From NCBI RefSeq assembly GCF_002261425.1, contig NZ_NEVJ01000003.1, positions 620,001-684,000 of the forward strand: a stretch of 64,000 nt of DNA, in the 5' to 3' direction. The number at the start of each line of letters is the position of its first letter. The first letter of the stretch is position 1. Under the pieces are notes generated by a model. The model did no database searches and was not told the DNA's origin. It saw nothing but the letters and a program-made list of their open reading frames with translations. The position numbers and the translations under genes are program-made. The DNA comes from Bordetella genomosp. 9 (GTDB lineage: Bacteria > Pseudomonadota > Gammaproteobacteria > Burkholderiales > Burkholderiaceae_B). Below are positions 3,807-47,516 of the stretch, piece by piece.

Positions 3807-5921
3807 ATGTCCACCGCACCCTGGCACGCCGGCGAACTCGCCCTGCAATCCCGCGTGGGCGTCCTCGCCCGGATGGACGACGTCGGCCGCCGCTTCATAC
3901 GTGATCACATGCCGGACCAGCACCGGGAATTCTTCGTGCAGCTGCCCTTCGTGGCGCTGGGCGCGGTGGCGCCGGATGGCACGGTCTGGGCGACGTTGCG
4001 GGCCGGGCACCCGGGTTTACTGACGTCGCCGGATCCCCGCCGCCTGGACATCGCCATCGAACGGGAAGCCGCCGATCCGGCGGACCCGGGCCTGGAGGAT
4101 GGCCAGGCCATCGGCCTGCTGGGCATCGACCTGGCGACGCGGCGCCGCAATCGCATGAACGGCGTGCTACGCCATGCGGGCGGCAAACTGTCCCACATCG
4201 ACGTGACGCACAGCTTCGGCAATTGCCCGCGCTACATCCAGCAGCGCGCGATCGTGTTCACGCGGGACCCCGCCGAACAAAGCACCGTCGCGCCGCAGGT
4301 CATGGATGCCCTGGATGCGGAAGCCCGCGCCTTGATCCAGGGGGCGGACACCCTGTTCGTCGCGTCCTACGTGGACCTGCCCGAAGGACGCCAGGTCGAT
4401 GTCTCGCATCGCGGCGGCAAGCCAGGCTTCGTGCGCCTGGACGACGACGGCGGCATGACGATTCCCGATTTCAACGGCAACCTGTTCTTCAACACGCTGG
4501 GCAACTTCATGGTGAACCCGGCGGCCGGCGTGACCTTCGCCGATTTCGAGACGGGCGAACTGCTGCAGATGACGGGCCGCGCCGAAGTCATCGTCGATTC
4601 ACCGGAGATCGCCGCTTTTCAGGGCGCCGAGCGCCTGTGGCGATTCTTCCCGCGCATCGTCGTGCGGCGCGCGGGGGCGCTGCCGCTACGCTGGGCGCGC
4701 AAGGAAGACGGCGCGTCGCCCAGTTCGCTCTTGACCGGCGACTGGACCCAGGTCGCCGACCGCTTGCGCGCCGCCGCCATGGCGCAGAACTGGCGGCCGT
4801 TCCGGGTGGCGCGCATCGTGGAAGAAAGCCGCGCCGTGCGCTCCCTGCACCTGGAGCCGGCCGACGGCGCGGGGCCCGCACCGCATCAGGCGGGCCAGTT
4901 CCTGCCTATCCGCGTCAGGCCGCCGGGCGCCGAAAAGCCGCTGACGCGTACATACACGCTGTCGGTGGCGCCTTCGGACGCCGGCTATCGCATCAGCGTG
5001 AAGCGCGACGGCGCGGTGTCGCAATTCCTGCATGACCACGTGCAGGTGGGCGACATCATCGAAGCTCGCGCGCCCGGCGGCGCCTTCACCGTGGATCCCA
5101 CCGAAAAAAGGCCGGTGGTGCTGCTGGCCGCCGGCATCGGGGTGACGCCCATGCTGGCCATGCTGCGCCACATCGTCTATGAAGGGCAGCGCAGGCAGAA
5201 GATGCGTCCGACCTGGTTCTTCCATTCGGCGCGTTCGATGGCGGAGCGGGCTTTCGCCGACGAACTGGCCGCGCTGCAGGCCGCCGGCCAGGGCGCGGTG
5301 CGCGTGTTCCGGCTGTTGAGCGACACGGCGGGCGCGCGTCTGGGTGAGGACTACGATCAGTCCGGACGGATAGACATCGATCTGCTGCGCGCCCGCCTGC
5401 CGTTTGACGACTACGACTTCTACCTGTGCGGGCCGGCTCCGTTCATGCAGTCGCTCTACGACGGATTGCGGGCGCTGAACGTGCCCGATGACCGGATCCA
5501 CGCGGAAGCCTTCGGGACGTCGTCGTTGACGCGGCAAGGCGGGCGGGTGAATGAGGCGACGGCGCCGGCAGGATTGCCGGCGGCGACGGCCGGATCGACG
5601 GCTGTCCAGGCAGCAGGCCACCCGGCAGCCCCACCGGTTGCGCGGCCGGCCACCGAATCGGTGCCGGTCATCTTCCTGCAATCCGCCAAGGAAGCGCGCT
5701 GGCAACCCGGCGGCGGGTCGCTGCTGGAACTCGCGGAAGAACGCGGGCTGGAGCCGGCCTTCGGCTGCCGTGGCGGCAGCTGCGGAACCTGCCGCACGCG
5801 GATCGTGCAAGGCGCGGTGGCGTATGCACAGCAACCTGAGTTCGACGTGCCCGAGGGCGAGGCCCTGATCTGCTGCTCGGTGCCGGCCGCGGGCGGCAAG
5901 CCCTTGCAGCTGGATCTTTGA
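3807..5921 (+). CDS. Pyridoxamine 5'-phosphate oxidase-like / ferredoxin reductase / [2Fe-2S] fusion protein
   Basis: A 704-residue three-part redox fusion. Residues about 1-330 are a pyridoxamine-phosphate-oxidase-like split-barrel (NTLGNFMVNPAAGVTFADF, probable FMN site). Residues about 335-580 are a ferredoxin-NADP reductase module with the FAD motif RTYTLS, the NAD(P) loop AAGIGVTPMLAMLRH and the C-terminal CGPAPFMQSLYDGL. An Ala/Pro-rich linker then leads to a plant-type ferredoxin domain with CRGGSCGTC plus a further Cys in ALICCS. The layout implies NAD(P)H-FAD-[2Fe-2S]-FMN electron flow within one chain. It follows lysR and GST genes in the same direction; the start has GGGAG nearby. 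Substrate unknown. Confidence 0.85.
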   Translation: MSTAPWHAGELALQSRVGVLARMDDVGRRFIRDHMPDQHREFFVQLPFVALGAVAPDGTVWATLRAGHPGLLTSPDPRRLDIAIEREAADPADPGLEDGQAIGLLGIDLATRRRNRMNGVLRHAGGKLSHIDVTHSFGNCPRYIQQRAIVFTRDPAEQSTVAPQVMDALDAEARALIQGADTLFVASYVDLPEGRQVDVSHRGGKPGFVRLDDDGGMTIPDFNGNLFFNTLGNFMVNPAAGVTFADFETGELLQMTGRAEVIVDSPEIAAFQGAERLWRFFPRIVVRRAGALPLRWARKEDGASPSSLLTGDWTQVADRLRAAAMAQNWRPFRVARIVEESRAVRSLHLEPADGAGPAPHQAGQFLPIRVRPPGAEKPLTRTYTLSVAPSDAGYRISVKRDGAVSQFLHDHVQVGDIIEARAPGGAFTVDPTEKRPVVLLAAGIGVTPMLAMLRHIVYEGQRRQKMRPTWFFHSARSMAERAFADELAALQAAGQGAVRVFRLLSDTAGARLGEDYDQSGRIDIDLLRARLPFDDYDFYLCGPAPFMQSLYDGLRALNVPDDRIHAEAFGTSSLTRQGGRVNEATAPAGLPAATAGSTAVQAAGHPAAPPVARPATESVPVIFLQSAKEARWQPGGGSLLELAEERGLEPAFGCRGGSCGTCRTRIVQGAVAYAQQPEFDVPEGEALICCSVPAAGGKPLQLDL

Positions 5922-5949
5922 CGGCCTCGGCCTGTATCCAGCAATCCCC

Positions 5950-6768
5950 TCAGGCGGCCGACTTCTGTCCCGGCTGCCGGCCCGCCGCGCGCAGGATCAG
6001 CCCGGCGATCCGCTCCGGCTGCGAGATCAGCGACAGGTGGCTGGCCTTGACCTCGATGGTCGTGGCGCCCATGCGCTTGGCCATGAACCGTTCCAGGTCG
6101 GGGTTGATGGTGCGGTCTTCGGTGGAGACCGCATAGAAGCTGGGCTTGGAACGCCAGGCCGCCTGGGTGGTCTTGCCGGTCAGCAGCGCCTTGCGGAAGG
6201 GTTGCTGCACGGCATACAGCACCATGGCCTTCTTGCGCGGCAGGTCGCCGGCGAAATCCTTGAGGAACGCTTCCTGGCTCAGGCGGCCCTCGTCGCCGTC
6301 GAACACGATGCCGGCGCTGGCGGGCGGCGTGGGAAACTTGGCGGCCAGCTGCCCGTAGTCTTCGTCGGCGTCCGGCGCGCGCGCCGCCACGTAGACCAGC
6401 GACGCCACGTTGGGATGCACGCCGGTTTCCGTCACCAGCATGCCGGAGAACGAGTGGCCGACCAGCACAGTGGGACCATCCTGCCGGTCCAGGACGCGGC
6501 GCACGGCATCCACGGCCTCCGGAAACGTCGTCAGCGGGTTCTGCACGGCGGTGGCATTCATGCCGGCGGCCTGTAGCCGCGCGATCACCTCGGTCCAGCA
6601 GGAGCCGTCGGCGAACAAGCCATGCGCCAGCACGACGTTCTTGATCGCTCCCGGGCCCGCGGCGGGCGCGGCGGCGGGAGCCGCCTGCGCGACCCGCAGG
6701 CCGGGAAGCAAGGTGGAGGCGGCGGCGCCCGCGAGCGTGGCGGCGAATGCACGGCGATTCATGGTCAT
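5950..6768 (-). CDS. Exported alpha/beta hydrolase (Tat signal)
   Basis: A 272-residue alpha/beta-fold hydrolase. The N-terminus MTMNRRAFAATLAGAAAS resembles a twin-arginine signal, so it is probably periplasmic. The mature part shows the oxyanion segment AHGLFADGSCW, the nucleophile elbow GHSFSG and a late KASHLS that supplies the catalytic His. Relatives are often annotated as esterases or EstC-type hydrolases. A LysR gene lies immediately upstream on the same strand (70 bp gap). Substrate unknown. The end is convergent with the fusion gene, 28 bp away. Confidence 0.85.
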   Translation of the reverse strand: MTMNRRAFAATLAGAAASTLLPGLRVAQAAPAAAPAAGPGAIKNVVLAHGLFADGSCWTEVIARLQAAGMNATAVQNPLTTFPEAVDAVRRVLDRQDGPTVLVGHSFSGMLVTETGVHPNVASLVYVAARAPDADEDYGQLAAKFPTPPASAGIVFDGDEGRLSQEAFLKDFAGDLPRKKAMVLYAVQQPFRKALLTGKTTQAAWRSKPSFYAVSTEDRTINPDLERFMAKRMGATTIEVKASHLSLISQPERIAGLILRAAGRQPGQKSAA

Positions 6769-23286: not shown

Positions 23287-23300
23287 TTGACCCATGTCAA
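23287..23300 (+). promoter_or_regulatory. FNR/ANR-type box upstream of the BON gene
   Basis: TTGACCCATGTCAA matches the FNR dyad except for one base in each half. A TATGAA -10-like element lies at 23326-23331, giving near class II spacing and a predicted start around 23337. This supports an ATG at 23379 rather than 23331 for the next gene. Confidence 0.6.
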
Positions 23301-24118: not shown

Positions 24119-24955
24119 ATGTTGAAACGCATCGCCCTGCACATCGAAAAAGACCAGGCCTGCGCGGGCCGCACCGCCGCCGCGCTGGCGCTCGCGCAGC
24201 GCTTCGAAGCGGAGCTGCTGGGCATCTACGTCGACTACACGTGGGTGCATTATCCCTACGGCGAAAGCATCATTCCCAGCGCGGCGTACGAGGTCATGCA
24301 GCAGCAGGCCAGGCAGGAGCACGACAGCTGCCACCGGCAGTTCGAGCGTGGCGTGGCCGATCGCGGCGTCCCGGCGCAGTGGCGCTACCCCGGCGGCCGC
24401 CCCGACGAAGTCCTGCCCCTGCACGCCCGTTGCGCGGACCTGCTGGTGCTGAGCCAGGCCCATGAACGCGAGACCGACTCCATCGTCGACCCCTACATGG
24501 TGGAGAACGTCATCATGAACGCCGGCCGGCCGGTGCTGGTGGTGCCCTACGCCGGCGAATACGTCAGCATCGGCAACCGGATCCTGGTGTGCTGGGACGG
24601 CGGGCGCGAAGCGGCGCGCGCCCTCGCGGACGCCGCGCCATTCCTGGCGCGTGCGGAAGAAGTCTGCGTACTGACGCTGGACACCGATTCGGACGCCATG
24701 CGCGACCGCGCCACGGTCCCGGGCGACCTGCAGGCCTGGTTCCGCGCCCAGGGCTACGCCGAGCCCCGGTTACTGACGCGCGAAACCGCCGGGCTGGGCT
24801 ACGGCAACGCCATCCTGAACGCCGCGTCCGACCACAGCTGCGACCTGATCGTCATGGGGCTCTACGGACACAGCCGGATGCGCGAATGGGTGCTGGGCGG
24901 CGCTTCCCGGGACATGCTGGACGCGATGACCGTGCCGGTGCTGTTCTCGCACTGA
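24119..24955 (+). CDS. Universal stress protein, tandem-domain
   Basis: A 278-residue tandem Usp protein. The first domain (about 1-145) begins MLKRIALHIEKDQACAGRTA and ends VLVVPYAGEY but lacks a clear ATP loop. The second (about 150-278) shows RILVCWDGGREAARALADA and the nucleotide signature GLYGHSRMREWVLGGASRDM, ending MTVPVLFSH. It follows the BON gene by 59 bp and is probably in the same FNR-controlled transcript. Such two-domain Usp proteins are common in anaerobic/hypoxic regulons of beta- and gamma-proteobacteria. Confidence 0.9.
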   Translation: MLKRIALHIEKDQACAGRTAAALALAQRFEAELLGIYVDYTWVHYPYGESIIPSAAYEVMQQQARQEHDSCHRQFERGVADRGVPAQWRYPGGRPDEVLPLHARCADLLVLSQAHERETDSIVDPYMVENVIMNAGRPVLVVPYAGEYVSIGNRILVCWDGGREAARALADAAPFLARAEEVCVLTLDTDSDAMRDRATVPGDLQAWFRAQGYAEPRLLTRETAGLGYGNAILNAASDHSCDLIVMGLYGHSRMREWVLGGASRDMLDAMTVPVLFSH

Positions 24956-33498: not shown

Positions 33499-33512
33499 TT
33501 GATCTGAGTCAA
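33499..33512 (+). promoter_or_regulatory. FNR/ANR-type box upstream of the ATPase-shell gene
   Basis: TTGATCTGAGTCAA: one half is a perfect FNR half-site, the other has one change. A TACGCT -10-like hexamer at 33535-33540 gives class II geometry and a predicted start at about 33547, one base before the ATG at 33548. Confidence 0.65.
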
Positions 33513-33547: not shown

Positions 33548-34591
33548 ATGCGTCCATACTCCATCTTCGCCCTGCCCGCCGGCCTGCCCGCGACGGCGCG
33601 CCGCGCGCGTCGTCATGCGCTGCTGCGCCTGGGGCTGGCCTGGCTGGTCATGATGCAGGTCATGATGCTGGCCTGGCCCGCCTATGTGCGCCACGACGGC
33701 CTGGCCGCCGGCAATCTGGCGACGCTGGACTGGGCGATCGGCCTGATGAACTGGACCAGCCTGGCCCTGACCGTGCCGGTGCTGGCCTATTCCGCCTGGC
33801 CGCTGTGGCGCGGCGCCGCGCTGCGGCTGTGGCAGGGCCGTGTCGGGATGGACCTGCCGGTGGCCGTCGGCATGGCCGCCGCTTTCCTGCCCAGCGTCCA
33901 CGCCACCGTCGTCGGCGCGGGCGACGTCTACTTCGATTCCGTGACGATGTTCGTCGCCTTCCTGCTGACCGCGCGCTACCTGGCCTTGTGCGCCCGGCAG
34001 TCGCGTCATGCCGGCCGGCGGGACCGCCTGCGGCGCCTGCGCTCGCTGCTGACGCTGTACGCGGACCGGCGCGCCGCCCTCTTCTGCACGCTGCAGCTGG
34101 CCGCCACGTTCGTGACCGGCGTGGCCTGGATCTGGATCGACGCCGACCGCTTCCTGCCGGTGACGGTCGCCATGCTGGTCATCAGCTGTCCCTGCGCGAT
34201 GTCGATGTCGGTGCCATCCGTCATGGCCAGCGCGGACGCCGTGCTGGGCGGACTGCCGGATAACCGGGACGCCGACCTCGCGGTCATCCAGGCCATCCAG
34301 GCCCTGGCCACGCGCAAGGCCATGCAGAACCTGTACGGCAGCGCGGCGTTCCACCTGCTGATGATGCCGCTGGCGGCCTTCGGCTGGGTCACGCCCTGGC
34401 TGGCCGCGCTCACGATGCTGGCGTCGTCGCTGGCCGTGGCCCTGAACGCCTGGGGGCTGCGCCGGCGCTGGACGGCGCGCACCGCGATGCCCGGCGATTC
34501 CCCGCCCACGCCCTGGGCGGCGGTAGCTGACGGCGCCGCGATCGACTTGGCGGGCCCGGCGCGCGACGACGCCTACGCCAAGGTCCGATGA
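33548..34591 (+). CDS. P1B-type ATPase membrane shell lacking all catalytic domains (CcoI/FixI-like)
   Basis: A 347-residue membrane protein that aligns by eye to the eight-helix core of CcoI/FixI copper ATPases. Helices lie at about 28-46, 60-82, 103-123, 128-146, 176-197 and 202-226 (with the metal motif ISCPCAMSMSVP, C214-P-C216), then two more in 258-300, including MQNLYGSAAFHLLMMPLAAF and WLAALTMLASSLAVALN. The actuator domain between helices 4 and 5 is reduced to about 30 residues, and the DKTG phosphorylation/ATP-binding domains between helices 6 and 7 to about 28. No N-terminal metal-binding domain is seen. The frame is intact. It lies just upstream of ccoS and ccoN behind an FNR box, so it may bind or conduct copper for cbb3 assembly without ATP hydrolysis. 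Confidence 0.8.
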   Translation: MRPYSIFALPAGLPATARRARRHALLRLGLAWLVMMQVMMLAWPAYVRHDGLAAGNLATLDWAIGLMNWTSLALTVPVLAYSAWPLWRGAALRLWQGRVGMDLPVAVGMAAAFLPSVHATVVGAGDVYFDSVTMFVAFLLTARYLALCARQSRHAGRRDRLRRLRSLLTLYADRRAALFCTLQLAATFVTGVAWIWIDADRFLPVTVAMLVISCPCAMSMSVPSVMASADAVLGGLPDNRDADLAVIQAIQALATRKAMQNLYGSAAFHLLMMPLAAFGWVTPWLAALTMLASSLAVALNAWGLRRRWTARTAMPGDSPPTPWAAVADGAAIDLAGPARDDAYAKVR

Positions 34592-34598
34592 AGGTTCC

Positions 34599-34736
34599 AT
34601 GAGCATCCTGCTGCTGCTGCTGCCGCTGTCGCTGCTGTTCGTCGCCGCCATCGGCGGCTTCCTGGCCTGGGCCGTCCTCAGCGGCCAATACGACGAAACG
34701 GATGCCACGGCGGGCAAGCTGCCGGACGGCGAGTGA
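34599..34736 (+). CDS. ccoS: Cbb3-type oxidase assembly protein CcoS
   Basis: A 45-residue single-helix protein, MSILLLLLPLSLLFVAAIGG followed by FLAWAVLSGQYDETDA and a short acidic tail. The helix and the W-x-x-x-S-G-Q-Y/F-D/E pattern are the CcoS hallmark. CcoS is needed for cofactor (haem/copper) insertion into cbb3 oxidase. It starts 7 bp after the ATPase-shell stop, the same order as ccoI-ccoS elsewhere, which supports the identity of both genes. Confidence 0.9.
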   Translation: MSILLLLLPLSLLFVAAIGGFLAWAVLSGQYDETDATAGKLPDGE

Positions 34737-34867: not shown

Positions 34868-36352
34868 ATGAGGGACAGCCCAGCGGCGACGGCCGAAACC
34901 TTCAACTACGGCGTCGTGCGGCGCTTCGCGCTGATGACCATCGTCTGGGGCATCGTCGGCATGGCCGTCGGCGTGGTGATCGCCGCGCAATTGATTTGGC
35001 CGTCCCTGAACTTCGACACCGCCTGGCTCACGTACGGCCGCCTGCGCCCCCTGCACACCAACGCGGTGATCTTCGCCTTCGGGGGCTGCGGGCTGTTCGC
35101 CACGTCCTACTACGTCGTGCAGCGCACCTGTCAGGCGCGGCTGTTCTGCGGCTGGCTGGCCGAATTCACGTTCTGGGGCTGGCAGGCCGTGATCGTGGCG
35201 GCCGCGATCACCCTGCCCATGGGCCTGACCAGCAGCAAGGAATACGCCGAACTCGAATGGCCCATCGACATCCTGATCACCCTGGTGTGGGTGGCCTACG
35301 CCGTGGTGTTCTTCGGCACCATCGTCAAGCGCAGGATCCGCCACATCTACGTGGCCAACTGGTTCTTCGGCGCCTACATCCTGACCATCGCCATCCTGCA
35401 CATCGTCAACAACGTCGAACTGCCGGTGACGATGTGGAAGTCCTATTCGGCCTACGCCGGCGTGCAGGACGCCATGGTGCAGTGGTGGTATGGCCATAAC
35501 GCGGTGGGTTTCTTCCTGACCACCAGCTTCCTGGGCATGATGTACTACTTCGTGCCCAAGCAGGCCGGCCGTCCCATCTATTCCTACCGCCTGTCCATCA
35601 TCCACTTCTGGGCCCTGGCCTTCACCTATATGTGGGCCGGCCCGCACCACCTGCTGTACACCTCGCTGCCGGACTGGACGCAGTCGCTGGGCATGACCTT
35701 CTCGCTGATCCTGCTGGCGCCGTCGTGGGGCGGCATGATCAACGGCATCATGACCCTGCAGGGCGCCTGGCACAAGCTGCGCACCGATCCCATCCTGAAG
35801 TTCCTGGTGACCGCCCTGTCCTTCTACGGCATGGCCACCTTCGAAGGCTCGATGATGTCGATCCGCAGCGTGAACGCGCTGTCGCACTACACCGACTGGA
35901 CCATCGGCCACGTGCATTCCGGCGCCCTGGGCTGGGTGGCGATGATCACCTTCGGCTCGCTCTACTACCTGATCCCCCGGCTGTACGGCAGGGACCGCAT
36001 GTACAGCGTGCGCGCCATCGAACTGCACTTCTGGGTCGCCACGCTGGGCGTGGTGCTGTACATCGCCGCGATGTGGACGGCCGGCGTGCAGCAAGGCCTG
36101 ATGTGGCGCGCCACCGCGCCGGACGGCACGCTGGTCTACAGCTTCGTCGAGGAACTGAAGACGCGCGTGCCGTATTACCTGATCCGGCTGCTGGGCGGGA
36201 CGCTGTTCCTGGGCGGCGTGCTGGTCATGGCCTGGAATACCTGGATGACGGTGCGCTCGGCCGCCCCCGTGAATCCCGCGATTCCCGACGCCGTCCCGGC
36301 GCCCGCCGAGGCGCCGCGCGGCGAGCCCGTCGTCGCCACCACTCCCGCTTGA
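34868..36352 (+). CDS. ccoN: Cytochrome c oxidase cbb3-type subunit I
   Basis: A 494-residue catalytic subunit with the conserved haem-copper helices: [18 protein letters not shown] holds a haem b ligand His, [20 protein letters not shown] holds the CuB His and cross-linked Tyr region, [16 protein letters not shown] supplies further CuB His ligands and [17 protein letters not shown] the haem ligands. Twelve or more membrane spans are expected. It reduces O2 with high affinity at low oxygen. The start follows AGGGGAG. First gene of ccoNOQP. Confidence 0.98.
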
Positions 36353-36362
36353 AAGGCCGACC

Positions 36363-37022
36363 ATGACTACCGGTAAGCAATCCTTCTTCTCGCACCACAC
36401 GCTGGAGAAGAACATCGGCCTGATGATCATCGCCACCATCGTCGTCGTGTCGATGGCCGGCCTGGTGCAGATCATTCCGCTGTTCTTCCAGCACTCCACC
36501 ACCGAGGCCGAAGCGGGCATCGAACCCTACAGCCCCCTGCGCCTGATGGGCCGCGACGTCTACATCCGCGAAGGCTGTGTCGGCTGCCACTCGCAGCAGG
36601 TACGCATGCTGCAGTCCGAAGTCCAGCGCTACGGCCCGTATTCGACGGCCGGCGAATCGGTGTTCGACCATCCCTTCCTGTGGGGCTCCAAGCGCACCGG
36701 CCCCGACCTGGCCCGCGTGGGCGAACGCTATTCCGACGCCTGGCATCGGGAACACCTGCGCGATCCGCGCGCCGTGGTGCCGGAATCGAACATGCCGGCC
36801 TACCCATGGCTGCGCACCGCCTCGCTGGCCGGACAGAACGTCGCGGCCCGCATGCGCGCCCTGCGGCAGCTGGGCGTGCCATACAGCGACCAGGACATCG
36901 CCGACGCGCCCAAGGCGCTGGAAGGCAAGACCGAGGAAGACGCGCTGGTGGCCTACCTGCAGGGACTGGGCCTGGCGGCCCGCAAGAACATACCGGCGCC
37001 TGCGCCGTCCACGGGGAAGTGA
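36363..37022 (+). CDS. ccoO: Cytochrome c oxidase cbb3-type subunit II
   Basis: A 219-residue mono-haem membrane cytochrome c. One N-terminal helix ([20 protein letters not shown]) is followed by the haem motif [14 protein letters not shown] and the distal Met in [11 protein letters not shown]. It transfers electrons from CcoP to CcoN. It starts 10 bp after ccoN. Length and motifs are fully typical. Confidence 0.98.
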
Positions 37023-37202: not shown

Positions 37203-38256
37203 CTTCACCACGCCTTTCTGGGGCTATTTCGTCGGCATCATCGCCATGGTCGGCATCGTGTGGTGCCTGTGGCTGCTGTACACCCAACGCCGCTGGCTGG
37301 GCCGGAGTAATGCGCCCCCACGCCGCGCCTCCGGCTTGCTGCCCCCCGAGGGGGCCCTTTTGCCTCGGGGCGGCCCAGCGGCAAAAGACGCCTACCAGCC
37401 CGCCGACACCGGCCACGTCTGGGACGGCGACCTGACCGAACTGAACAATCCCGTGCCGCGCTGGTGGACGGTGATGTATCTGCTGATGTGCCTGTTCGCG
37501 GTGGGCTACCTGCTGCTGTTTCCCGGCCTGGGCCATTACGCCGGCACGCTGGGATACACCAGCGCGGACGACGTGCGCAGGCAGCAAGAGGCGCAGGACA
37601 CCGCCACGCGGCCGCTGTACGCGCGCTACGAGGCCATGCCGGTGCCGGAGATCGCGCGCGATTCCCGCGCCCTGGAGATCGGCCAGCGCCTGTTCCTGAA
37701 CAACTGCGCCCAATGCCATGGCTCGGACGCCAAGGGCGCGCCCGGCTTTCCCAACCTGACCGACGGCGATTGGCTGTACGGCGGCGCGCCGGAAACCATC
37801 CTGCAGACCATCACCAAGGGCCGTCACGGCGTGATGCCGGCGTGGAGCGGGACGATCGACGCCCGCACCGCCTCCGACCTCGCCGACTACGTACGGTCGT
37901 TGTCGGGGCTGGGCGTGGACCGCTCGCGGATCTTCAACGGCAAGGACGCCTACGCGACGTATTGCGTGGCCTGCCACGGCGTCGACGCCAAGGGCAACCA
38001 GGCGCTGGGCGCGCCCAACCTGACCGACGACGTCTGGCTGTACGGCAGTTCGCAGCGCACCATCGAGGCCACCATCCTGAACGGCCGCGACAGCCGCATG
38101 CCGGCGCAGGAAGGCGTGCTGACGCCCGCGCAGATCCGCATCCTGACCGCCTGGGTATGGCGGCAATCCAATGGAAACGCCAATGGCGGCGGCGCGGCCT
38201 CGGCTGCCGGTAACGCCGGCGACCTTGCCCGCGCCACGGCGTCGGGCAAGCCATGA
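37195..38256 (+). CDS. ccoP: Cytochrome c oxidase cbb3-type subunit III (with in-frame repeat insertion)
   Basis: A 353-residue di-haem cytochrome. Helix 1 (FWGYFVGIIAMVGIVWCLWL) is followed by RRWLG; the region at about residues 39-63 (SNAPPRRASGLLPPEGALL and on) is coded by a GC-rich hairpin sequence and has no counterpart in standard CcoP. Normal sequence resumes with TGHVWDGDLTELNNPVPRWW and helix 2. Haem motifs are CAQCHG (near 178) and CVACHG (near 260). It accepts electrons from soluble cytochromes. The insertion keeps the frame and lies in the cytoplasmic loop, so function is probably kept. Stop overlaps ccoG start. Confidence 0.96.
   Translation: MSDFTTPFWGYFVGIIAMVGIVWCLWLLYTQRRWLGRSNAPPRRASGLLPPEGALLPRGGPAAKDAYQPADTGHVWDGDLTELNNPVPRWWTVMYLLMCLFAVGYLLLFPGLGHYAGTLGYTSADDVRRQQEAQDTATRPLYARYEAMPVPEIARDSRALEIGQRLFLNNCAQCHGSDAKGAPGFPNLTDGDWLYGGAPETILQTITKGRHGVMPAWSGTIDARTASDLADYVRSLSGLGVDRSRIFNGKDAYATYCVACHGVDAKGNQALGAPNLTDDVWLYGSSQRTIEATILNGRDSRMPAQEGVLTPAQIRILTAWVWRQSNGNANGGGAASAAGNAGDLARATASGKP
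37309..37389. repeat. GC-rich hairpin (REP-like) element inserted in ccoP
   Basis: The segment contains CCCCGAG (37344-37350) and CTCGGGG (37364-37370) as a 7-bp stem with a 13-base loop, embedded in GCTGCCCCCCGAGGGGGCCC and CGGGGCGGCCCAGCGGC. I recall near-identical hairpins as dispersed intergenic elements in Bordetella/Achromobacter genomes; that is from memory and not searched. Here it is in frame inside a gene. Exact borders are uncertain. Confidence 0.6.
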
Positions 38257-39632
38257 GCGCCGTCGACGCCAAGATCTACGCCCGCGCCGTCACCGGGACC
38301 TTCGCGCGCTGGCGCATCGCCTTCGTGTTCCTGACCCAGGCCCTGTTCTACGGGCTGCCCTGGCTGCAATGGGACGGCCGGCAGGCGGTGCTGTTCGACC
38401 TGGGCGCGCGGCGCTTCTACCTGTTCGGCCTGGTGCTGTGGCCGCAGGACATGGTCTACCTGGCCATCCTGCTGTTGATCAGCGCCGTCGGCCTGTTCCT
38501 GTTCACCGCCCTGGCGGGCCGGCTGTTCTGCGGCTACGCCTGTCCGCAGACGGTGTATTCGGAGATCTTCGCCTGGATCGAACGCAGGATCGAAGGCGAC
38601 CGGGCGGCCCGGCAGCGGCTGGACCAGGCGCCCTGGTCGGCGCGCAAGCTGCGGCTCAAGGCCGGCAAGCACCTGCTGTGGCTGGCGATCGCCTGGTGGA
38701 CCGGCAGCACCTTCATCGGCTACTTCGCGCCCATCCGCCAACTGGCGCATGACCTGTTCACGCTGCAGCTGGGGCCCTGGCAGTGGTTCTGGATCGTGTT
38801 CTACAGCCTGGCGACCTGGGGCAACGCGGGCTTCCTGCGCGAATCGGTATGCAAGTACATGTGCCCCTACGCCCGCTTCCAGAGCGTGATGGTCGACCGC
38901 GATACGCTGGTGGTGGCCTATGACCAAGGCCGTGGCGAACCGCGCGGCGGGCGTTCGCGGCAGGTCGACGCCCGCGCGCAGGGCCTGGGCGACTGCGTGG
39001 ATTGCGGCTGGTGCGTGCAGGTGTGCCCCACCGGCATCGACATCCGCGACGGCCTGCAATACATGTGCATAGGCTGCGGGGCCTGCGTGGACGCCTGCGG
39101 CGACGTCATGAAGAAAATGCACTATGCGCCCGGCCTGATCCGCTATGCGTCGGAACGCGTGATGACCGAAGGCATATCGCGCGGCGCGGCCCTGCGGCGG
39201 CTGTTGCGCCCGCGCACCGCCGTGTACGGCACGCTGCTCGCCGCGCTGCTGCTGGCCTTGGCGGGCGCGCTGTGGCTGCGCCAGCCCTTGCGCATGGACG
39301 TGATCCGCGATCGCGGCATCCTGGGCCGCGAGGCGGCCGGCGGGATGGTGGAAAACGTCTATCGCCTGCAATTCATCAACACGTCCAACCTGCCCTTGCA
39401 GGTAGCCTTGTCCGCCGACGGGATGGAAGGCATCGTGGTGACCGCGCCGGATGGCACGGCCAGCGTCCACGTCGACGCCCTGGACAACAAGGTGATCGCG
39501 GCCGTGGCCCGCGCGCCGGGCGCCGCCGCCGAGCCGGGCGCGCACCGCATCGTCATACACGCGGCCGGCACCGCGCCCGACGGATCGGTCGTGCGCGCGG
39601 ACGAACCGGCCAGTTTTTTCATTCCGCGATAG
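38253..39632 (+). CDS. ccoG: Cytochrome c oxidase accessory protein CcoG (RdxA/FixG)
   Basis: A 459-residue membrane iron-sulfur protein. Membrane helices lie in the first 230 residues (LFYGLPWLQW, MVYLAILLLISAVGLFLFTA), with FCGYACPQTVYSEIF and CKYMCPYARFQ. Two ferredoxin motifs follow: CVDCGWCVQVCPTG and CIGCGACVDACGD. A further helix near 325 and a periplasmic immunoglobulin-like tail complete the family architecture. CcoG is reported to act in copper reduction during cbb3 assembly. Start overlaps ccoP (ATGA). Confidence 0.96.
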   Translation: MSAVDAKIYARAVTGTFARWRIAFVFLTQALFYGLPWLQWDGRQAVLFDLGARRFYLFGLVLWPQDMVYLAILLLISAVGLFLFTALAGRLFCGYACPQTVYSEIFAWIERRIEGDRAARQRLDQAPWSARKLRLKAGKHLLWLAIAWWTGSTFIGYFAPIRQLAHDLFTLQLGPWQWFWIVFYSLATWGNAGFLRESVCKYMCPYARFQSVMVDRDTLVVAYDQGRGEPRGGRSRQVDARAQGLGDCVDCGWCVQVCPTGIDIRDGLQYMCIGCGACVDACGDVMKKMHYAPGLIRYASERVMTEGISRGAALRRLLRPRTAVYGTLLAALLLALAGALWLRQPLRMDVIRDRGILGREAAGGMVENVYRLQFINTSNLPLQVALSADGMEGIVVTAPDGTASVHVDALDNKVIAAVARAPGAAAEPGAHRIVIHAAGTAPDGSVVRADEPASFFIPR

Positions 39633-46984: not shown

Positions 46985-47452
46985 TCAGGCCGAGGCCGGC
47001 TTGGCTTCTTTGTGCGGCACCAGCATCACCGGGCACGCCGACAGGCGCACGAAGCTTTCGGCGACGCTGCCCAGCATGAGCCGCTGGAAACCGCGGCGGC
47101 CGTGCGTGCCCATCACCACCAGGTCGGCGCCGGCTTCGGCGGCCGCGTCCGCCAGCTGTTCGGCGATCGTGCCGCTGAGCACGCCCGCGTCGACCATCTT
47201 GACCGCGCCCTTCACGCCGGCATCGCGGAACTTGGCCTGGGCCACGTCGAGCACGGACCGCGCTTCTTCGACCATGGCGTCGTGGAAAGGCTCGACGTCG
47301 ATGAAGGCGGAGGAATACATGGAGCTGGGATACTCCACGATATAGACGGCCAGGATGCGTGCGTCCTCGACGCGCGCCAGCGAGATCGCATGGTCCAGCG
47401 CGCGTTCGGAAGTGACGCTGCCGTCGACGGCAACCAGAATGTGTCGATACAT
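46985..47452 (-). CDS. Universal stress protein (UspA family)
   Basis: A 155-residue Usp with MYRHILVAVDGSVTSERALD and the nucleotide-binding stretch GTHGRRGFQRLMLGSVAESF, ending CPVMLVPHKE. The ATG at 47452 follows GGAGAC and fits the family; the in-frame extension to 47503 lies over the FNR box. It resembles the Usp encoded at 1477-1950. It is first in a probable operon with the PatZ-type acetyltransferase. Confidence 0.92.
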   Translation of the reverse strand: MYRHILVAVDGSVTSERALDHAISLARVEDARILAVYIVEYPSSMYSSAFIDVEPFHDAMVEEARSVLDVAQAKFRDAGVKGAVKMVDAGVLSGTIAEQLADAAAEAGADLVVMGTHGRRGFQRLMLGSVAESFVRLSACPVMLVPHKEAKPASA

Positions 47453-47502
47453 GATGTCTCCTTGGGGAAGACCCACTTTATCGGCACCCGGCGCCGCCCC
47501 CA

Positions 47503-47516
47503 TTGATATGCGTCAA
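47503..47516 (-). promoter_or_regulatory. FNR/ANR-type box upstream of usp-pat
   Basis: TTGATATGCGTCAA, read as TTGACGCATATCAA on the minus strand, has one perfect half-site and one with a single change. TAAAGT (47475-47480) is centred 32 bp downstream, giving a class II start near 47468, 16 bp before the usp ATG. Confidence 0.7.

Follow-up and report, generated by a model that had tools for sequence, protein, structure and literature searches.

The stretch of DNA analyzed here, called the window below, comprises 64,000 nucleotides of Bordetella genomosp. 9 (contig NZ_NEVJ01000003.1, positions 620,001 to 684,000 of the forward strand). It carries a gene for a short protein related to P-type copper ATPases, followed on the same strand by genes of a cbb3 oxidase. 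A first-pass annotation, made from the letters of the window, had placed a short P-type gene upstream of ccoS-ccoNOQP, and this order is what we find, with ccoS next and then ccoN. The features of the locus, in window coordinates, are as follows.

33499..33512, + strand: FNR-like box TTGATCTGAGTCAA, its centre about 42 nt 5' of the start codon of the short gene
33548..34591, + strand: short CcoI gene, one open frame of 347 aa from ATG 33548 to TGA 34591
33650..33667, + strand: MMQVMM of helix 1 (residues 35-40), common to most full-length CcoI but not to CopA
33848..33850, + strand: Met101, in the column taken for the copper-entry Met158 of AfCopA
34001..34057, + strand: linker (residues 152-170) in place of the actuator domain
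34187..34195, + strand: CPC metal motif (residues 214-216)
34241..34312, + strand: linker (residues 232-255) standing in for the absent phosphorylation and nucleotide-binding domains
34349..34354, + strand: Phe268-His269, at the position of the Tyr-Asn ligand pair
34415..34429, + strand: MxxSS of the last helix (residues 290-294; M290, S293, S294)
34599..34736, + strand: ccoS (45 aa), small cbb3 assembly protein, resembling the annotated CcoS at the same place in a related locus, L081
34797..34810, + strand: second FNR-like box, 5' of ccoN
34868..36352, + strand: ccoN, catalytic subunit of the cbb3 oxidase (TIGR00780, 764 bits), with the WWYGHN and GPHHL histidines
36363..37022, + strand: ccoO, matching the annotated ccoO of L081
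37026..37202, + strand: ccoQ-like small ORF, named by position as in L081
37195..38256, + strand: ccoP, named by position and by two CxxCH sites seen in the translation
38253..39632, + strand: ccoG, whose homologues lie 3' of ccoNO in related loci; the order is that annotated in L081
39654..39950, + strand: FixH/CcoH-like gene, tentative (Pfam, 21 bits, below the cut-off of 23)

Anatomy and copper path of the short protein

The homology of the helices to P1B ATPases, on which the first-pass annotation depended, was borne out. TIGR01511 matched the short protein with 61.4 bits, split over three stretches, PDB CopA chains matched with E ~2e-8 over three stretches in order, and Pfam E1-E2_ATPase matched with 24.8 bits, which is under its cut-off of 28.1. 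The fold is kept in a predicted model, the Foldseek match of which is modest by itself (E 2.9e-4, TM 0.42). Alignment with three full-length CcoI proteins, two from Variovorax and one from Halomonas, finds the membrane helices collinear, in one intact frame with CPC at residues 214-216 as previously described, and the N-terminal metal-binding, actuator, phosphorylation and nucleotide-binding domains all absent. Compared with a full-length relative of 832 aa (L144), the short protein is without residues 10-179, 320-427, 507-734 and 746-772, stretches that contain three CxxC motifs, TGE, DKTGT, HP and GDGxND. The catalytic domains had been described as replaced by linkers of about 30 residues through two losses; the actuator, P and N domains are indeed gone, but the linkers are closer to 20 and 24 residues, and the losses are three, since the N-terminal metal-binding region is absent as well. 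About 25 residues precede helix 1, with no CxxC among them.

With CcoI/FixI/CtpA (the CopA2-type P1B-1 ATPases) the short protein shares the eight-helix membrane domain, CPC, MxxSS, an MMQ-type helix 1, the position 5' of ccoS-ccoNOQP and, as set out below, a place nested in the CcoI family tree. Unlike these ATPases it has no N-terminal metal-binding region, TGE actuator, DKTGT or nucleotide-binding domain, its YN is replaced by (W/F)H, and no part of it could hydrolyse ATP. The membrane fold and copper path are also those of CopA (the CopA1-type copper export ATPase), but CopA is a complete detoxification pump, whereas the domains of the catalytic cycle are incomplete here, and identity in the membrane columns is 22-26%. 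As read from its sequence, the short protein is a complete P1B membrane domain with zero catalytic domains. A phosphorylation cycle requires the P, N and A domains; since these are missing, anatomy excludes powered P-type transport by the short protein alone. The soluble P-type ATPase of Methanocaldococcus jannaschii, which has catalytic domains and no membrane part, is the mirror case.

Conservation along the copper path was assessed in 193 distinct short sequences (the 120 best protein hits, related loci and the window protein), which represent the better-scoring part of the family. The patterns used to scan for loci contained MMQVMM, the conservation of which is therefore partly due to sample selection, but none of the ligand columns. 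The copper sites of AfCopA are reported to be formed by C380/C382, Y682, N683, M711 and S715 (PMC9433437, PMC7558416), and M158 to act in copper entry (PMC9433437). CPC, M101, M290 and S293 are present in 193/193 short sequences, and S294 in 192/193. Column 130, which we take to be the "exit acid", is Asp or Glu in 193/193, while residue 146 is Glu in 175 and Ala in the rest, the window protein being one of these 18, and column 173 is Asp in 127 and Asn in 66. The earlier reading of the helix 7 YN motif as FH is correct for the window protein, in which F268-H269 occupy this position; across the sample the Tyr column holds Trp (183) or Phe (10) and the Asn column holds His in 193/193. Full-length CcoI-type sequences have Asn in 15/15 and Tyr in 14/15, and CopA sequences have both in 29/29. 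All membrane copper-ligand columns are retained or swapped for another ligand type, except for the change of Tyr to Trp/Phe, and the change of Asn to His throughout the sample indicates that the site has not been left to decay.

These columns bear on an alternative that we consider unlikely, namely that the protein is a metal-free scaffold or stability factor for the assembly of CcoN and CcoS, its copper ligands being relics of the fold. CcoI has been called a hub of cbb3 assembly (PMC8475189), and the position in the operon would suit such a factor; but its ligand residues would be free to drift, while C214, P215, C216, M290 and S293 are invariant and the Asn column has changed to a different ligand type in every sequence. 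The first-pass annotation had suggested a copper channel, scaffold or chaperone for cbb3 assembly. Ligand conservation argues for metal binding and against a metal-free scaffold, but it does not choose between a relay and a channel for copper.

Distribution, selection and descent

Homologues bearing the same deletions, for which the first-pass annotation had proposed a search, are numerous: the best 120 of 618 matches (E<=1e-3) are all 312-393 aa long, in a search limited to lengths between 0.55 and 1.75 times that of the query, which full-length ATPases exceed. Members among these best 120 of 618 matches are filed as 'hypothetical protein' or 'P-type ATPase', and the nearest named homologue, from Bordetella sp. 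H567, has 84% identity over 88%. Scanning named genomes with the DNA patterns MMQVMM[FL] and AFLLTARY[LF] yielded at least 535 relatives, the best 80 of which were kept; these come from genera that we assign to Alcaligenaceae or from Alcaligenaceae bacteria, with one labelled Burkholderiaceae. A sequencing artefact or a truncation particular to the window was rejected, since the same short form occurs in many homologues and relatives. All 80 loci have a single open frame over the match, and DKTG occurs in none of the 80 ORFs. The linkage to cbb3 genes that marks CcoI/FixI is present, with ccoN 3' on the same strand in 78/80 loci. Of the other two, L066 has no ccoN before the contig end, and in L047 (G006:C15:491152-493644, Bordetella sp. 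LUAb4) the short gene adjoins a divergent ccoN, with which it cannot share a transcript, yet it is kept next to it.

The FNR box claimed upstream of the short gene is likewise conserved in relatives. The box TTGAYNNNNRTCAA lies at most 300 nt upstream of the short gene in 68 of 79 usable loci, against a background of 0.0077 per kb, and its centre is 38-45 nt 5' of the start codon in 67 of these 68 and 84 nt in one. A second box stands between the short gene and ccoN in 52/77 loci. FNR-type activator boxes are usually situated about 41 nt 5' of the transcription start; with the box about 41-42 nt 5' of the start codon, many of the transcripts may be leaderless, with their first nucleotide in or directly beside the start codon. 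The window as a whole holds five FNR-like patterns where 0.03 would be expected. The three outside the locus (2047-2060, 23287-23300 and 47503-47516) adjoin ORFs that by eye resemble universal-stress-type proteins (1477-1950 on the - strand, 24119-24955 on the + strand and 46985-47503 on the - strand).

We surveyed 250 genomes from the family of one carrier with a profile of the short protein (E<=1e-12), which matched in 189, 24 of them with E > 1e-100. Three of the weaker matches are damaged or cut-off short forms, by an insertion (G101), a contig end (G076) or a contig end with unknown bases (G190); a reading of the last as a shorter, 250-aa form was rejected, since with unknown bases present there is no deletion. 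The remaining 21 were counted as full-length type, and 17 were examined: the frame is open over 672-858 aa in 16 and split in one (G093). One genome of the full-length type (G121) is without ccoN, and its ATPase may not be a CcoI. Short-form genomes number 168, with open frames seen for most; G140 and G155 were dismissed as exceptions, their TGA closing a frame of 309 residues in which all helices are present. At E<=1e-80, ccoN was found in 189/250 genomes, 165 with the short form, 20 with the full-length type and four with neither (G085, G114, G149 and G163), ccoN starting less than 400 bases from a contig end in G085 and G163. The short form is thus accompanied by ccoN in 165/168 genomes, and the other three (G076, G106 and G190) have the short gene at a contig end.

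Selection was estimated by Nei and Gojobori counting, pooled over 272 non-independent pairs from 39 sequences (dS 0.05-0.6). Pooled dN/dS is 0.19 for the whole short gene, close to the median of 0.18 from an earlier, looser comparison. The helix regions have 0.11 (residues 25-150), 0.126 (171-231) and 0.155 (256-303); outside the helices the values are 0.29 for the first 24 residues, 0.20 and 0.35 for the two linkers and 0.66 for the C-terminal tail. For ccoN the same pairs give 0.092, which indicates strong purifying selection; together with the histidines of WWY(G/A)HN and HHL, kept in 77/77 CcoN examined, this means that CuB is presumably still made.

That the gene is a decaying ccoI remnant, kept by chance or linkage, is largely refuted and, in our judgment, extremely improbable. 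The insertion in the short gene of G101 and the ccoN of G192, which looks frame-broken next to an intact short gene, are what can be said for it, against one frame in all 80 loci, helix dN/dS of 0.11-0.16 and residues that are invariant across the clade. A pseudogene reading was accordingly rejected on open frames and purifying selection. The first-pass annotation had favoured a maintained protein over decay and had named dN/dS and frameshifts in sister strains as the check. Its view is upheld by the purifying selection, the single clade, the fixed motif change and the conserved promoter and operon; one surveyed genome, G101, has an insertion in the gene.

At this G101 locus (L146, ~5045-6122), the short gene is split by about 1.1 kb of inserted sequence, and the ccoN match falls into two parts. 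The reverse strand of the insert has a 332-residue open stretch resembling an integrase-type transposase, which we presume to be IS481-like. The ccoN of B. pertussis has been reported with a premature stop (PMC11257404); G101 could be B. pertussis, in which case the short gene and ccoN would be lost together.

A tree was built from the shared membrane columns of 34 short, 15 full-length CcoI-type and 12 CopA sequences. With IQ-TREE the short forms make up one clade (100/100) within a 100/100 clade holding the full-length CcoI of three genomes, which places their descent in CcoI; the full-length CcoI genes of these three nearest genomes also lie 5' of ccoN. FastTree support for the short clade after re-rooting is 0.388, and the immediate sister among full-length CcoI has a support of 8.6/50. 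In its membrane columns the window protein shares 47-49% identity with the two nearest full-length CcoI, as against the 22-26% with CopA given above. Among the full-length CcoI-type references, 10/15 precede ccoN, and L083, L148, L152, L153 and L157 are arranged otherwise. Judged from these sequence comparisons, the short form stands where full-length CcoI would otherwise be. A long stem leads to the short clade (0.74 substitutions per site), a length that would fit rapid change when the domains were lost and constraint thereafter.

Other copper ATPases and chaperones in carrier genomes

Twenty-four carriers other than the source genome of the window were searched for full-length CcoI in three ways. 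With TIGR01511, all 24 showed a match of CopA type (575-608 bits), G006 only when neighbouring in-frame pieces were added. A Variovorax CcoI query, with controls of 1717 bits against itself and 465 bits against Halomonas CcoI, gave a best score of 313 bits at 26-35% identity, and no full-length CcoI was found in the 24 carriers; the short genes themselves were 41-45% identical to this query over the first helices. The DNA pattern for MMQVMM occurred once in 19/24 carriers, always within the short gene, and was absent in five. TIGR01511 at E<=1e-60 matched in 43 of 48 further carriers, 40 of them above the cut-off, and contig numbers suggest that the assemblies of the other five are fragmented. 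One surveyed carrier, G192 (L157, L158), holds both a short form and a full-length CcoI-type ATPase. It has two cbb3-like clusters, one with the short form and the ccoN that appears frame-broken, the other with the full-length ATPase and divergent ccoN (31%) and ccoO (38%).

The supply of other ATPases raises the idea that the short protein works with an ATPase in trans, for example CopA or a separate soluble ATP domain. We regard this as quite improbable. The TIGR01511 matches above the cut-off in all 24 first-tested carriers and in 40 of the further 48 would provide a partner, but five of the 48 have no match at E<=1e-60, the short cytoplasmic linkers give a partner little to act on, and no stand-alone actuator/P/N-domain protein recurs among the matches listed for the 24 carriers, which include one 186-aa fragment in G014 and some split ATPases.

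SCO1-SenC was present in 19/19 genomes searched (15 with the short form, four with full-length CcoI) and does not discriminate between them. In Pelistega suis (G022, L161, 5372-9813) a CopA-type ATPase gene adjoins a PCuAC-like gene, recognized by eye, and a Sco gene (PF02630); together these may form an export-to-chaperone unit able to supply the short CcoI. The MFS importer CcoA, the cupric reductase CcoG and the chaperones SenC/PCuAC have folds unrelated to that of the short CcoI. They too are described as dedicated copper-delivery factors of cbb3 (PMC5829832, PMC7558416).

A putative role in cbb3 assembly

We propose, with roughly even confidence, that the product of the short gene is a membrane protein derived from CcoI, ATP-independent and Cu(I)-binding, which acts as a periplasmic-side relay or insertase in the assembly of the adjoining cbb3 oxidase. 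Cu(I), either exported by CopA or present in the periplasm and carried by Sco/PCuAC chaperones, would bind at the Cys/His/Met site that the short protein has within the membrane. From there it would be passed on inside the membrane, from the periplasmic side, to the nascent CuB of CcoN, a handover in which CcoS and CcoH probably assist. CopA would perform the ATP-driven transport, with the short protein retaining just the oxidase-specific relay and docking role of CcoI. On this view a P-type ATPase would have become, in a single event and lastingly throughout a bacterial family, a copper insertase or carrier that acts within the membrane independently of ATP. The membrane core of the pump would operate by itself, its Cys-Cys/His/Met site re-engineered to metallate the CuB of cbb3. 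We hold this evolutionary reading to be evenly balanced between true and false.

The relay is supported by the fold of the model, the purifying selection that is strongest in the helices, the co-occurrence with ccoN and the FNR-type box. In R. capsulatus, extra CopA is reported not to replace CcoI and a CPC mutant to be inactive (PMC8475189), which hints at a role of CcoI beyond bulk export. Reported Cu(I) affinities are 6e-22 M for CopZ, 1e-15 for the membrane sites of CopA, 8e-16 for PccA and 3e-15 for SenC (PMC7558416), values that come from other species and from YN-bearing sites. P1B membrane sites thus lie near SenC and PccA, whereas CopZ binds some six orders of magnitude more tightly; an unpowered site could therefore exchange copper with periplasmic chaperones but could hardly strip CopZ.

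The same affinities shape the alternative of an ATP-independent Cu(I) channel or facilitator derived from the pump, a possibility that we find doubtful. Net flow would run downhill from periplasmic chaperones to the cytosolic pool, making the channel an importer that feeds CopA or CcoG-linked steps. Retention of all the membrane helices and of most of the entry Met, entry acid and exit acid (M101 193/193, E146 175/193, D/E130 193/193) would suit it, but an open femtomolar site would probably make a poor channel, the switch to His suggests holding rather than passing, and the gene is tightly linked to ccoN, not to copper-resistance genes. Taken together, the affinities and the position in the cbb3 operon favour the relay or insertase over the channel, the scaffold and the ATPase in trans, which we rank in that descending order.

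Several observations count against the relay. CcoI is reported to transport only with hydrolysable ATP (PMC8475189) and FixI to be strictly needed for cbb3 in Caulobacter (PMC12617631), so the ATP-driven CcoI/FixI required in R. capsulatus and Caulobacter weighs on the other side, and no precedent for a working ATP-less CcoI was found in the open-licence literature. Added copper is described as restoring about 30% of activity to R. capsulatus delta-ccoI in one assay, which suggests that CcoN may obtain some copper even when CcoI is absent. A cbb3-only strain of B. bronchiseptica reportedly could not be made although no locus had more transcript than ccoN; translation, assembly or cofactors are the causes suspected by its authors (PMC11257404). 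By analogy this failure may also speak against a working relay. The kept chaperone-entry residues M101 and E146 would fit cytosolic access as well, and the loss of the Tyr ligand likewise counts against the relay.

As far as our searches of the open-licence literature go, these proteins represent an undescribed family of P-type ATPases lacking catalytic domains. No description of a truncated CcoI without catalytic domains was found there, nor in the excerpted texts of PMC8475189, PMC5829832, PMC7558416, PMC9433437, PMC12617631, PMC11257404, PMC13038864, PMC10903467, PMC10654040 and PMC6769254. The last, a survey of beta-proteobacterial copper proteins, states that it left out ATPases supplying respiratory complexes (PMC6769254). 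The carriers are bacteria related to Bordetella and Alcaligenes, with the short gene beside genes of high-affinity oxygen respiration. A review finds it puzzling that the copper of CuB enters cbb3 from the periplasm, yet strictly needs an ATP-driven exporter that uses cytosolic copper (PMC7558416). A clade that keeps cbb3 with just the membrane core of CcoI is a natural experiment that separates transport from insertion and makes this question directly testable. It suggests that copper handling for oxidase assembly is possible without a pump; if that is true, the dependence of cbb3 on a dedicated ATP-driven CcoI pump would not be universal.
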